A stretch of 64,000 bases of DNA from Archaeoglobus sulfaticallidus PM70-1 (GTDB taxonomy: Archaea; Halobacteriota; Archaeoglobi; Archaeoglobales; Archaeoglobaceae), in NCBI RefSeq assembly GCF_000385565.1, contig NC_021169.1, positions 1,470,571 to 1,534,570 on the forward strand. Direction: 5' to 3'. The notes under the pieces were generated by a model. It had not been told where the DNA came from. It worked only from the letters and a program-made list of their open reading frames with translations, and searched no databases. The position numbers and the translations under genes are program-made. Positions 15,371-45,912 of the stretch are shown piece by piece (the first letter of the stretch is position 1; the number at the start of each line of letters is the position of its first letter).

Positions 15371-15389
15371 TCTTAATTTTTTGGGAGTT

Positions 15390-17294
15390 ATGGGAGTGGA
15401 TGAATACCTTTCAGAATTAAAGCGGAAAGTTGCGGCTTCGCTACCCTCAGTTAGAGTAAAAAATGTCGAATTTGAAGGACCAGTTCTCGTAATCTATGTT
15501 GAAAACCCACAGGAGCTTGCAGAGAGTGGAGATGTAATAAAAAAGCTGGCTAAAGATTTAAGAAAGAGAATACTCATACGTCCTGATCCAAAGAGCCTAA
15601 AGCCTCCTGAAGAGGCCAAGGAGATAATAAGGCAAATAGTGCCGGAAGATGCACAGGTGACATCCTTCTTTTTCGATCATGAAAATGGAGAGGTTATAAT
15701 CGAGGCTGAGAAGCCTGGGATAGTCATCGGGAAGCAGGGGGTTATGCTCAGAGAGATAATGAAGGCTGTTGGGTGGAGTCCAAAGGTCATGAGAACTCCG
15801 CCTATAAAATCCAAGACCGTCGATAATGTCAGGCAGTTCCTGCTGAGTTCGAGAGAGGAAAGGAAGGAGATTCTTAAAAAGATAGGCGTTAAGATCCATC
15901 GAGGGTCTTTCCACGAGGAGAAGTGGGTAAGAGTTACATTCCTTGGAGGATCGAGGGAGGTTGGGAGAAGCTGCTACCTGCTGCAAACTCCAGAAAGCAA
16001 GATTCTAATAGATTGTGGAGTTAATGTCAGCAACATCCAACAGTCCCCATACCTGTATGTTCCCGAATTGCAGCCATTGGACTCAATCGATGCGGTTGTT
16101 ATTACCCACGCCCATCTCGATCACTGTGGTTTGGTGCCAATTCTCTACAAGTATGGCTACAGAGGGCCGATATATCTGACTCCCCCAACGAGAGATCTGA
16201 TGGTGCTGCTTCAGCTTGATTTCATAGAGGTTGGAGCGAGAGAGGGCAATCCTGTAGTTTACGAGTCCAACCTCGTAAGGGAAGCTTTGAAACACACAAT
16301 AACGATAGATTATGGTGTTGTTACGGATATAAGCCCGGATATAAGGCTCACATTCTACAACGCCGGACATATCCTTGGCTCATCAATAGCTCACTTCCAT
16401 ATCGGAGAGGGCTTGTACAACATCGCATTCTCCGGAGATTTCAAGTTTGAAAGAACGAGGCTTTTCGACAAGGCGGAAACCAACTTCCCCAGGCTTGAAG
16501 CGTTAATAATGGAAGCCACATATGGAAGTGGCAATGACTTCCAGCCAGCGAGGAGGGAGGCTGAGGAGCGGCTGATCAGCATTATAAAGGAGACCGTTGA
16601 TAAAAAAGGGAAGGTTCTGATCCCAACATTCGCCGTTGGTAGAAGTCAGGAGGTAATGATTGCCCTCGAGGAAGCGATCAGAACAAAGAAGCTTGAGGGG
16701 CTGACCGTATATCTTGATGGGATGATATATGAAGCTACAGCAATCCATACAGCGTATCCTGAGTATCTGAACACCCATCTCAGGGACATGATATTCCACC
16801 ATGGATTAAACCCGTTCATATCCGAGAGCTTCACACAGGTCGATTCCTCATCGAAGAGGGCAGATGTGATAGACGAAGCAGAGCCATCGGTTATTCTCGC
16901 AACATCGGGAATGCTTAACGGTGGGCCGGTAATGGAGTACTTCAGACATCTAGCTGGAGATGAAAAGAACACAATAGTCTTCGTTGGATATCAGGCTGAG
17001 GGAACTCTGGGCAGGAGAATTCAGAAGGGCTGGAAGGAGGTACCACTAACATCCAACGGCAGGAGAGAGGTTGTGGAAGTTAAGATGAATGTTGAGACTG
17101 TGGATGGATTCTCTGGTCACTCTGACAGAAGACAGCTTATGAACTATGTCAGGGCATTGAGTTCAAGGCCAGAGAAGGTGATAACAGTCCACGGAGATGA
17201 GTCAAAGTGCTTGGATCTCGCTTCAAGCATTTACAAGACCTACAAGATCGAAACCCGAGCACCCATGAACCTCGAGACGATAAGGTTCGTTTGA
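15390..17294 (+). CDS. Transcription-termination ribonuclease aCPSF1/FttA (KH, metallo-beta-lactamase, beta-CASP)
   Basis: A 634-residue protein. Residues 1-145 hold two archaeal KH-like domains (KPGIVIGKQGVMLREIMK has a GxxG loop). The metallo-beta-lactamase domain follows with THAHLDHCGLVP (about 240), GHILGSS and FSGDFKFE. The beta-CASP domain has EATYGSGND, PTFAVGRSQE and ATSGMLNGGPVMEYFR. The final zinc-site motif is GFSGHSDRRQL. In archaea this endo/5'-3' exonuclease cuts U-rich transcript ends and terminates transcription. Counterparts are eukaryotic CPSF73 and Ints11. The ATG at 15390 is preferred over TTG at 15381. It runs in series with psmB and mobB. Confidence 0.95.
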   Translation: MGVDEYLSELKRKVAASLPSVRVKNVEFEGPVLVIYVENPQELAESGDVIKKLAKDLRKRILIRPDPKSLKPPEEAKEIIRQIVPEDAQVTSFFFDHENGEVIIEAEKPGIVIGKQGVMLREIMKAVGWSPKVMRTPPIKSKTVDNVRQFLLSSREERKEILKKIGVKIHRGSFHEEKWVRVTFLGGSREVGRSCYLLQTPESKILIDCGVNVSNIQQSPYLYVPELQPLDSIDAVVITHAHLDHCGLVPILYKYGYRGPIYLTPPTRDLMVLLQLDFIEVGAREGNPVVYESNLVREALKHTITIDYGVVTDISPDIRLTFYNAGHILGSSIAHFHIGEGLYNIAFSGDFKFERTRLFDKAETNFPRLEALIMEATYGSGNDFQPARREAEERLISIIKETVDKKGKVLIPTFAVGRSQEVMIALEEAIRTKKLEGLTVYLDGMIYEATAIHTAYPEYLNTHLRDMIFHHGLNPFISESFTQVDSSSKRADVIDEAEPSVILATSGMLNGGPVMEYFRHLAGDEKNTIVFVGYQAEGTLGRRIQKGWKEVPLTSNGRREVVEVKMNVETVDGFSGHSDRRQLMNYVRALSSRPEKVITVHGDESKCLDLASSIYKTYKIETRAPMNLETIRFV

Positions 17295-40066: not shown

Positions 40067-40498
40067 ATGAAATTGATCGATGAAAAGGACAAGAAAATAA
40101 TCGGAATGCTTGCCGAGGATTCAAGAGTATCCTACACCAAGATGGCTAAAGAACTCGGTATAACTGAGGCAGCGATAAGAAAGAGGGTCAAGAATCTGGA
40201 GGCAAGGGGGATAATAAGGAAGTACACGATAGAAGTGGACAGCACAAAGCTTGGATACAATGTAGTCTCCCTGACAGGAGTTGATACAGAGCCTGAGAAG
40301 TTTCTTGATGTTGCCAAAAAGCTCAAGGACGAGGAGTTCACGAGAAGCGTTTACATAACCACTGGAGACCATATGATCATGGCTGAAATCTGGGCAAAGG
40401 ATGGAGATGAGCTAACAAAGATAATTTCAGAAAAAATTGGGAAAATACCGGGAGTTAAGAAAATCTGTCCAGCAATAATTCTCGAGAAGCTCAAATGA
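40067..40498 (+). CDS. Lrp/AsnC-family transcriptional regulator
   Basis: A 143-residue protein with an AsnC-type HTH ([20 protein letters not shown] ... [17 protein letters not shown]) and a C-terminal RAM/ACT-like domain ([19 protein letters not shown] ... [19 protein letters not shown]). These proteins bind amino acids and control amino-acid metabolism. TATA-like TTTTATATAC at 40036-40045 lies 27 nt before the ATG, giving a leaderless mRNA. It is followed immediately by the converging racemase gene. The ilvBN operon 3.3 kb away is a possible target, but that is a guess. Confidence 0.9.
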
Positions 40499-43403: not shown

Positions 43404-43572
43404 ATCTTTATTAATATATTTTTATTCAGAAATAGGTTGGAGAAGTTTGATAGATTGTTATAAGTAGAGTCATATTTTCCGGTTTATGACCTCGTCGCTC
43501 TTCTTTATGAAAATTATTCGATCACTGATTTCCAACACTATTTAAGATATCACAATCCAGACCCTTTCACCA

Positions 43573-43586
43573 AAAAATATTTAAAG
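43573..43586 (+). promoter_or_regulatory. TATA box of the ilvBN leader transcript
   Basis: AAAAATATTTAAAG is centred 28 nt before the ATG at 43608, the spacing expected for a transcript that starts at or within a base or two of that ATG. No better TATA box lies nearer ilvB. Confidence 0.55.
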
Positions 43587-43607
43587 CCAATTATTTATCG
43601 GGATATA

Positions 43608-43688
43608 ATGAGTGCTACCCTCGAACTAAACAATTTTGGAGTTGTTCTTGGGGTAGTACTTATTGTTGTAGTAGTATTGCTTCTTTAA
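43608..43688 (+). CDS. 26-residue Val/Leu-rich leader peptide upstream of ilvB (candidate attenuator)
   Basis: ATG at 43608 to TAA at 43688 encodes MSATLELNNFGVVLG followed by VVLIVVVVLLL. Sixteen of 26 residues are Val (8), Leu (7) or Ile (1), and 14 of the last 15 are branched-chain. It ends 29 nt before the acetolactate synthase start. The TATA spacing implies leaderless translation of this frame. This is the composition and placement of the ilv/leu leader peptides that control bacterial operons by attenuation. The alternative is a small single-span membrane peptide. Only the frame, promoter spacing and composition are seen; regulation is inferred. Confidence 0.55.
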   Translation: MSATLELNNFGVVLGVVLIVVVVLLL

Positions 43689-43706
43689 ATGGTTTTTCCG
43701 TCTTTT
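43611..43706 (+). promoter_or_regulatory. RNA hairpin and U-runs in the ilvB leader
   Basis: AGTGCTACCC (43611-43620) can pair with GGGTAGTACT (43651-43660): ten base pairs with one G-U. Inside the loop AACAA (43629-43633) can pair with TTGTT (43642-43646). The hairpin lies within the leader reading frame, so a translating ribosome would open it. Two U-runs follow the leader stop, TTTTT (43693-43697) and TTTT (43703-43706), just before the GAGGTGG ribosome site of ilvB at 43707. U-rich tracts are the archaeal termination signal. Confidence 0.45.
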
Positions 43707-43717
43707 GAGGTGGTTAA

Positions 43718-45385
43718 ATGCGAGGTGCTGACGCGATTGTCAAGGCTTTGGAGGAGGAGGGTGTTAAAACCATTTTCGGGATACCAGGTGGAGCTATAAT
43801 CGAGGTCTATGATGCCCTTTACGATTCTCAGATAACACACATTCTGACCAGACACGAACAGGCTGCGGTCCATGCGGCAGACGGCTACGCCAGAGCTTCT
43901 GGAAAAACTGGAGTTGCATTCACAACCTCGGGCCCTGGAGCGACGAATGCCGTTACGGGCCTAGCAACAGCTTACATGGACTCGTCTCCAATAGTTGTTC
44001 TCACAGGCCAGGTTCCGAGAAGCCTGATAGGCTACGATGCTTTCCAAGAAGCTGACATAACTGGCATAACCATGCCCATCACCAAGCACAACTATATAAT
44101 ACACAAGCCCGAGGAGCTTCTGCCATCGATAAAGGAAGCCTTCTACATAGCATCCACCGGGAGGCCAGGCCCGGTTCTGATAGATGTTCCAAAGGATATC
44201 ACCGCAATAGATGTTGAGTACAACTATCCGAAAAAAGTTAACCTGCCGGGCTATAAACCCAATCTAAAGGGTCATCCCAAACAGATAAAGAGAGCTGCAC
44301 AGCTTATAATGGAGAGCGAGAGGCCGATAATTCTCGCTGGAGGTGGAGTTATATTATCCAACGCCAGTGATGAGCTCGTTAAGCTTGCCGAAACGATTCC
44401 GGCTCATGTTGTCACAACCCTCATGGGCAAGGGATCGATTCCGGAAACACATCCTCTCTGCTTAGGATTTGTTGGGATGCATGGCTCCAAATATGCAAAC
44501 TATGCTTTAACCGAGTGTGACCTGGTTATTGCCGTTGGAACGAGGTTCAGCGATCGTACAACAGGAAATGTTGAAAGCTTCGCTCCTTATGCGAAAATAA
44601 TCCACATCGATGTCGATCCGGCAGAGATAGGGAAGAATGTGAGAGTTGATGTTCCGATAGTTGGTGATGCCAAAAATGTTCTCTCATCCCTCCTGAAAAT
44701 AATCAGCTACAAAAAGCGAAAAGAGTGGGAGGACAGAATAGCAAGCTGGAGAACAAAGTATCCTCTCAGATACAGAAAAGATGACAAGCTCAGACCACAG
44801 TATATTATAGAGAGAATATTCGAAATAGAGCCAGATACAATTGTCACAACGGAAGTTGGACAGAACCAGATGTGGGCTGCACAGTACTTCAAAACCAAAT
44901 ATCCGAGGCAGTTCATTTCAAGCGGTGGACTTGGCACGATGGGCTTTGGATTCCCGGCAGCAATAGGTGCACAGATGGCATTCCCGGAGAAGAATGTTGT
45001 GGATGTTGCCGGAGATGGCAGCTTCCTGATGAACATTCAGGAGCTGGCAACCTGTGTTGACTTTAACATCCCTGTTAAAATCGCAATAATGAACAACCAG
45101 TTCCTTGGAATGGTCAGACAGTGGCAGGAACTGTTCTACAAAGAGAGGTACTCTGCAACCTGCTTGAGATGCAAAGAAATGAGGTTTGACAAGATTGCTG
45201 AGGGATTTGGTGGTGTTGGCATAGTTGTTGAGAGGCCAAGTGAGGTGGATGAGGCGCTGAAAGAGGCTTTTGAGATAAGGGATAGGCCAGTGGTCATAGA
45301 TTTCAGAGTGGAGAGGCTGGAGAATGTCTATCCGATGGTTCCTGCTGGTGCCGGACTGAACCAGATAATCGATGGAGAGTATTAG
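43718..45385 (+). CDS. ilvB: Acetolactate synthase, large (catalytic) subunit
   Basis: A 555-residue thiamine-diphosphate enzyme starting Val, Leu and Ile synthesis from pyruvate. The N-terminus MRGADAIVKALEEEGVKTIF and the catalytic Glu of RHEQAAVHAADGYARASG (about 47) are seen. FAD/quinone-site blocks and GRPGPVLIDVPKDIT (about 150) follow. The ThDP motif is GDGSFLMNIQELATCVDFNIP (about 430; GDG to N, quoted in two parts GDGSFLMNIQE and LATCVDFNIP). A strong GAGGTGG ribosome site lies 4-5 nt before the ATG. ilvN follows after 11 nt. Confidence 0.96.
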   Translation: MRGADAIVKALEEEGVKTIFGIPGGAIIEVYDALYDSQITHILTRHEQAAVHAADGYARASGKTGVAFTTSGPGATNAVTGLATAYMDSSPIVVLTGQVPRSLIGYDAFQEADITGITMPITKHNYIIHKPEELLPSIKEAFYIASTGRPGPVLIDVPKDITAIDVEYNYPKKVNLPGYKPNLKGHPKQIKRAAQLIMESERPIILAGGGVILSNASDELVKLAETIPAHVVTTLMGKGSIPETHPLCLGFVGMHGSKYANYALTECDLVIAVGTRFSDRTTGNVESFAPYAKIIHIDVDPAEIGKNVRVDVPIVGDAKNVLSSLLKIISYKKRKEWEDRIASWRTKYPLRYRKDDKLRPQYIIERIFEIEPDTIVTTEVGQNQMWAAQYFKTKYPRQFISSGGLGTMGFGFPAAIGAQMAFPEKNVVDVAGDGSFLMNIQELATCVDFNIPVKIAIMNNQFLGMVRQWQELFYKERYSATCLRCKEMRFDKIAEGFGGVGIVVERPSEVDEALKEAFEIRDRPVVIDFRVERLENVYPMVPAGAGLNQIIDGEY

Positions 45386-45396
45386 GAGGGGTATGT

Positions 45397-45912
45397 ATGA
45401 GCAACAATAATAAAAGATCAAAATATACTATATCCGTTCTGGTTGAGAACAAGCCCGGTGTGCTTGCGAGAGTCTCATCACTATTCAGAAGAAGAAATTT
45501 CAACATAGAGAGTCTCACCGTTGGCACTACAGATAGAGAAGATATCTCGAGGATGACCATAGTCGTCAACGGAGATACCAAGATGGTTGAACAGGTTATG
45601 AAACAGCTCAACAAGCTGATAGAGATCATAAAGGTCAGTGATGTTACAGAAAACAGCGTTGAAAGAGAGCTTGTACTTATAAAGGTTAAAGCAACATCCG
45701 AGACGAGGGGAGAGATAGTTGAACTCGCCAACATTTTCAGAGGGAGAGTTGTGGATGTGTCAAAGGATAGCCTCATAATCGAGCTAACGGGAGATGAGGA
45801 TAAGATAAGGGCTTTTGTGAATCTAATGAGACAGTTCGGAATCAGAGAGCTCGCCAGAACGGGTAAAGTTGCGATGCAGAGGGGAGAAAAAATAGTGGCT
45901 TTAAACCCTTAA
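45397..45912 (+). CDS. ilvN: Acetolactate synthase, small (regulatory) subunit
   Basis: A 171-residue subunit with an N-terminal ACT domain (YTISVLVENKPGVLARVSSL ... NFNIESLTVG) that binds valine for feedback inhibition, and the C-terminal ALS_ss_C domain (ELVLIKVKATSETRGEIVEL ... LTGDEDKIRAFVNLM). The ribosome site AGGAGGGG overlaps the ilvB stop region, 11 nt before the ATG. The last 12 nt overlap the end of the converging amphi-Trp gene. Confidence 0.95.
   Translation: MSNNNKRSKYTISVLVENKPGVLARVSSLFRRRNFNIESLTVGTTDREDISRMTIVVNGDTKMVEQVMKQLNKLIEIIKVSDVTENSVERELVLIKVKATSETRGEIVELANIFRGRVVDVSKDSLIIELTGDEDKIRAFVNLMRQFGIRELARTGKVAMQRGEKIVALNP

Follow-up and report, generated by a model that had tools for sequence, protein, structure and literature searches.

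A conserved Val/Leu/Ile-rich leader frame before ilvB in Archaeoglobaceae, a candidate amino-acid-sensing attenuator with an aromatic counterpart

Organization of the ilvB locus

The window, meaning the whole stretch of DNA analysed, comprises 64,000 nucleotides of Archaeoglobus sulfaticallidus PM70-1, whose genome (G000) is a single contig of 2.077 Mb. The locus of interest lies on the + strand and contains ilvB, the acetolactate synthase large subunit (43718-45385; NF004710/TIGR00118) and the gene proposed to be regulated, followed by ilvN, the small subunit (45397-45912; TIGR00119), both identified with NCBIfam models. Upstream of ilvB, on the same strand, are a BRE/TATA promoter element, ccaaaaaatatttaaa (43570-43585, with TTTAAA at 43580-43585), a leaderless ORF of 26 codons plus TAA, MSATLELNNFGVVLGVVLIVVVVLLL (43608-43688, stop codon at 43686-43688), a U-rich spacer (43689-43706, with U5 at 43693-43697 and U4 at 43703-43706) and the Shine-Dalgarno (SD) sequence GAGGTGG of ilvB (43707-43713). 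Exactly 28 nt lie between the start of TTTAAA and the leader ATG at 43608, and 29 nt between the leader end and the ilvB ATG at 43718. Val occurs 8 times in the peptide, Leu 7 times and Ile once, these three filling 14 of its 15 final positions, and the putative control codons (43653-43685), which read V V L I V V V V L L L, abut the stop. A preliminary description of this DNA had reported the TATA position, the ATG, the 26-codon frame, the residue counts, the distance to ilvB, both U-runs and the ilvBN genes downstream, all of which proved correct.

In this genome the distance from TTTAWA to the gene ATG has a sharp peak at 27-30 nt, which is the geometry of leaderless genes, and 28 nt is the commonest TATA-to-ATG spacing class. 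Since the leader ATG falls inside this peak, the mRNA most likely starts, judging from the spacing, at the leader ATG or a few bases earlier. An LrpA-family regulator was identified at 40067-40498, about 3 kb upstream of ilvBN, and could add control at the level of the promoter.

Conservation of the leader

The same layout was found before ilvB in 33 of the 35 other Archaeoglobaceae genomes examined, with the conserved order of TATA, ATG, a frame of 13-28 codons, stop, a spacer with the SD, and ilvB. In each of the 34 leaders listed the TATA-to-ATG distance falls within 27-31 nt, and in nearly all it is 28 +/- 1; the spacer from leader stop to ilvB ATG ranges from 12 to 40 nt across the family, every leader ORF is in frame, and the ilvB of nearly all relatives has an SD of the GAGGTGG/GGTGG type. 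No leader was found before ilvB in one fragmentary genome (G007), and in one MAG (L035) the leader frame is broken. Four congeners (L283, L287, L293 and L295) have leuA just upstream of the leader-ilvB unit, with the leader promoter between leuA and ilvB. Outside the family, the same kind of search over about 88 ilvB loci gave two spurious matches and no credible leader, and in the order-level sister family, where ilvB follows leuA, the leuA-ilvB genes are likewise preceded by no ilv leader.

The leader peptides are unalignable, as can be seen in MLANCGIRNLELFSVIIVVVQ, MQTMLNLPVVVVC, MKKFSGKELVVVLLVLLF and MAKVPSTSVVFVSIIVSILLVE, and their N-termini are dissimilar even within a genus. An Archaeoglobus MAG, at 87% IlvB identity, is the closest named relative by that protein, and no leader peptide is conserved even between congeners whose IlvB proteins are about 87% identical. 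The comparison with sister species proposed in the preliminary description gave a frame and a codon content that are kept while the peptide diverges.

These observations bear on two other readings of the frame. The first, named in the preliminary description as the main alternative, is a small hydrophobic membrane peptide that serves a function of its own, as the hydrophobic tail of the window's peptide would allow, but it is contradicted by lengths down to 13 residues (MQTMLNLPVVVVC), by the lack of alignment between congeners, by a layout seen only before ilvB and by the mirror image of an aromatic-rich frame before aromatic genes described below. The conserved sequence and membrane-spanning length of a small membrane protein family were not found among these peptides of 13-28 residues with unalignable N-termini, and this reading is considered very improbable. 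The second is that the frame arose by chance in promoter DNA of low complexity and that ilvB is controlled only at its promoter, for instance through the LrpA-like protein encoded at 40067-40498; the presence of that gene about 3 kb upstream agrees with it, but frame, start spacing, composition and codon choice are conserved in about 34 species and a matched aromatic system exists, so that it is hardly credible. The leader frame before ilvB is far beyond chance, and promoter control may operate in addition to the leader.

Residue composition and codon choice

Val, Leu and Ile account for 263 of the 408 residues (64%) in the last 12 positions of the leaders, compared with 26% genome-wide (P=8e-61; this and the other P values count related species as independent, which overstates certainty, and the figures are descriptive). 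The proportion is 23% in the remaining N-terminal part and 17% and 10% in the two other reading frames. Positions -2, -3 and -4 before the stop are Val, Leu or Ile in 97% (32 leaders), and the final residue is usually not one of the three, being nearly always C, E, F, H, L or Q. The V/L/I-rich frame of the preliminary description stood as to composition and was corrected as to placement, the V/L/I codons being right against the stop.

The choice among synonymous codons is also biased. Val is encoded by GTA in 107 of 137 cases (78%, against 17% in the genome), Ile by ATT in 46 of 59 (78%, against 27%; ATA, with a genomic share of 44%, is rare) and Leu by TTG or CTT in 88 of 124 (71%, against 34%; CTG, 29% in the genome, is rare). 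In these composition and codon counts the ATG of one leader (L017) was taken too early, and the later steps use the ATG matching its sisters. The tRNA-Val species UAC, GAC and CAC have one gene each. The bias fits selection for particular isoacceptors and would be consistent with sensing of tRNA charging; alternatively, it could come from keeping U-runs out of the frame.

The tightly fixed tail, with V/L/I at -2 to -4 and a limited final residue, would also suit nascent-peptide arrest, in which a free amino acid is bound by the peptide tail within the ribosome, as tryptophan is by TnaC, and the residues count rather than the charging of tRNA. But the synonymous bias towards GTA, ATT and TTG/CTT is needless for arrest by a peptide, the tail residues swap freely among Val, Leu and Ile, and the aromatic leader has other residues in the same place, all of which make arrest of this kind improbable.

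Leader hairpin and access to the ilvB start

The preliminary description had placed a 10-bp hairpin within the frame. The pairing of 43611-43620 with 43651-43660 is present, with one G-U pair, and belongs to a predicted hairpin (43608-43663, + strand) in which the 5' end including the AUG (43608-43621) pairs with the first Val codons (43650-43663), the stem reaching 14 bp (-24.6 kcal/mol predicted at 37 C, with z between about -2 and -4). In five congeners 94% of cells are paired and three pairs have two-sided changes. Significant hairpins are limited to the window's own genus and one other (L008, L013 and L014), most other genera lack them, and most leaders are predicted to be nearly unfolded at 75 C. 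As a structure absent in most relatives cannot be the universal switch, the hairpin is retained as real in its own genus and rejected as the common mechanism; a universal hairpin switch of bacterial style is unlikely on these predictions. Mutually exclusive antiterminator and G+C-rich terminator hairpins were not found across the leaders of the family, terminator-like hairpins beside U-runs occur in a few species only, and no Rfam match was obtained at the ilvB leader.

Under translational attenuation the ribosome on the leader would govern access to, or re-initiation at, the ilvB start, and a stall at V/L/I codons would raise ilvB translation. The leader stop is near the ilvB SD, 12-40 nt from the ATG, and masking the footprint of a stalled ribosome slightly raises predicted SD accessibility at 75 C, but the gain is small, would be expected for any mask and is nil at 37 C, so that unmasking of the SD was rejected as a candidate. 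No conserved anti-SD structure was found. Pairing of the Val codons (GUAGUA) with the ilvB start region was likewise rejected as the explanation of the GTA bias and counts against translational attenuation, since cognate pairs have no advantage over pairs swapped between species (P=0.41) and little advantage over shuffles of the codon order. With the evidence of the aromatic leader given below, this output is regarded as possible and on the unlikely side.

U-runs after the stop and transcription termination

The spacer after the leader stop is the proposed site of termination. A run of at least four U between the leader end and the SD was identified in 27 of 32 leaders and in 78 of 263 intergenic controls before genes with an SD (descriptive P=3e-9), while runs of at least five U occur in only 14 of the 32. 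Archaeal termination acts at U-tracts and the termination nuclease aCPSF1/FttA requires U-rich RNA (PMC11616081, PMC8116511); mutual exclusion or competition between aCPSF1/FttA and the ribosome has already been proposed (PMC11616081, PMC8116511). The gene of aCPSF1/FttA is itself present in the window, as had been noted before, although unlinked to ilvB (15381-17294, + strand; TIGR03675, 1013 bits), and its product is a candidate trans factor. As the control codons reach the stop, a ribosome stalled on them would cover or crowd the U-run, and shielding of this run from archaeal termination (aCPSF1/FttA) is the favoured output.

An aromatic leader before ADH synthase

An unbiased scan of stretches covering 2.05 Mb of the window's genome looked for short frames that follow a TATA box and precede a gene. 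The ilvB leader ranked second; the first was an F/Y/W-rich, attenuator-like frame, MVEMSISNPNYSYFWFSFGYPFFY (G000:C1:905058-905135, - strand), which precedes the genes of ADH synthase (TIGR01949) and 3-dehydroquinate (DHQ) synthase II, the archaeal entry to aromatic amino acids. This leader is kept in almost all Archaeoglobaceae where the gene was found (relatives L232-L257 and L365-L393) and in the sister family (L248). Phe, Tyr and Trp make up 62% of its last 12 residues, compared with 9.5% genome-wide (descriptive P=1e-96). Most second-copy, weaker-matching paralogues of ADH synthase lack the leader and serve as negatives. Phe/Tyr codons alternate with Ser AGC in leaders such as those of L244 and L249 (UUUAGCUUUAGC), AGC being 62% of the Ser codons against 25% genome-wide; the alternation perhaps avoids U-runs that would end transcription inside the leader.

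The aromatic leaders usually have no U-run directly after the stop, and are followed by a strong SD, which sometimes belongs to a second small frame. This second frame, with its own SD, lies between the leader and ADH synthase in L232, L233 and L244, ends in ...NKR, has a TGA that overlaps the SD of ADH synthase, and is missing in species with short spacers. The weaker U-runs and the coupled small frame inserted in several species are what keeps translational attenuation alive as the main rival.

No leader of the ilvB kind was found before leuA (+ strand loci plus a few others), nor one of the same kind before hisG or trpE. Two other enriched frames of the genome, one W-rich and 16 residues long (1862428), the other C-rich (877454), were discarded, as neither precedes an amino-acid gene. 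Two congeners (G003 and G005) gave no match for archaeal trpE or ADH synthase and two more (G001 and G004) none for archaeal trpE, which suggests that aromatic synthesis was lost or that other enzymes are used. Separately, ARAGORN reported, within 410 bp, a run of five consecutive tRNAs for Thr, Arg, Thr, Thr and Gln (G000:C1:1360773-1361180); the run may be a repeat array mistaken for tRNA genes.

Ribosome-mediated attenuation as the best reading

A short ORF, presumably translated, is placed between promoter and biosynthetic gene by its position, spacing and conservation, and codons for the end products are enriched in both the ilvB and the aromatic leaders. The strongest argument for attenuation is that two independent frames each carry the amino acids of their own pathway, and this match puts ribosome-mediated sensing of charged tRNA ahead of the other readings. 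The ilvB leader is very probably an amino-acid-sensing attenuator of some kind, it is likely that stalling on V/L/I codons drives it whichever its output may be, and there is an even chance that the output is termination of transcription. The core of the attenuator idea in the preliminary description is strongly supported by the conserved frame, the divergent peptides and the aromatic leader, and two details were corrected, the reach of the hairpin and the place of the V/L/I codons.

In the most far-reaching reading, to which a probability of about 0.4 is given and which is accordingly tentative, the attenuator of Archaeoglobales would be independent of RNA structure: a ribosome stalled on the last codons would hide a U-rich site from aCPSF1/FttA, and at least two leaders, branched-chain and aromatic, would be tuned to different amino acids. 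In the favoured course of events, transcription would start at the leader AUG and the ribosome would begin on the 5' end. With charged Val, Leu and Ile tRNA plentiful, the ribosome would complete the leader and leave, exposing the U-rich RNA past the stop, and transcription would end early by the intrinsic U-tract, by aCPSF1/FttA or by both. With these tRNAs uncharged, the ribosome would stall on the last codons with the U-run inside its footprint, and the polymerase would continue into ilvBN. In the window's own genus the 5' hairpin may in addition act in the manner of segment 1:2 in bacterial attenuators, pacing the polymerase or preventing re-initiation at the AUG.

Significance and comparison with known systems

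The V/L/I and F/Y/W leaders of nearly all sampled Archaeoglobaceae strongly suggest, from sequence comparison, that these archaea sense amino-acid shortage by stalled translation. If true, this would be the first amino-acid attenuation and the first ribosome-controlled antitermination described in archaea, and the two matched, conserved leaders would imply that tRNA charging is sensed by coupled transcription and translation in archaea too.

Control by leader-peptide attenuation is textbook knowledge in bacteria, and the bacterial branched-chain leaders (ilvL of ilvGMEDA, ivbL of ilvBN and leuL) have a biased codon choice. These leaders and that of ilvBNC in C. glutamicum are likewise short, rich in V/L/I codons and, as here, directly before ilv genes. 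The archaeal leader differs from the bacterial branched-chain attenuators by its TATA promoter, leaderless start and control codons abutting the stop, by the lack of a conserved terminator/antiterminator pair and of sequence homology, and by an archaeal RNA polymerase without Rho. The C. glutamicum leader peptide, according to a report cited in PMC13158618, is formed without a ribosome-binding site. The aromatic leader resembles trpL and pheL in being rich in the end products of the pathway before biosynthetic genes, but it mixes Phe, Tyr and Trp, precedes ADH synthase and DHQ synthase II (first enzymes of the archaeal type), alternates with Ser AGC codons and has no established set of conserved hairpins.

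In the tna operon of E. coli the ribosome on TnaC shields a Rho site and the signal is free tryptophan. The proposed logic is shared, a ribosome held near the leader stop hiding a downstream site of a termination factor, but here the signal would be charged tRNA, and the place of Rho would be taken by aCPSF1/FttA or a U-tract. Early, promoter-proximal termination by aCPSF1 is a regulatory step in Saccharolobus (PMC8448881), where, in contrast to the leaders described here, there is no leader frame or amino-acid signal. Attenuators were described in 2014 as lacking in vivo support in archaea (PMC4247193), and a paper of 2021 states that archaea had no known case of attenuation or antitermination of transcription (PMC8448881). 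A passing remark in a tool paper extends attenuation by upstream ORFs to archaea, and no archaeal example accompanies the remark. Searches of the open-licence literature returned bacterial leaders only and no archaeal leader-peptide amino-acid attenuation; earlier reports elsewhere are possible.

With these leaders it can be tested directly whether occupation of nascent RNA by ribosomes and by aCPSF1/FttA is mutually exclusive, a question that comes from structural work (PMC11616081). The ilvB leader would work like a bacterial amino-acid attenuator and is assigned to none of the described leader families; as promoter and termination machinery differ from the bacterial ones, the likeness between archaeal and bacterial attenuation is probably one of convergence.
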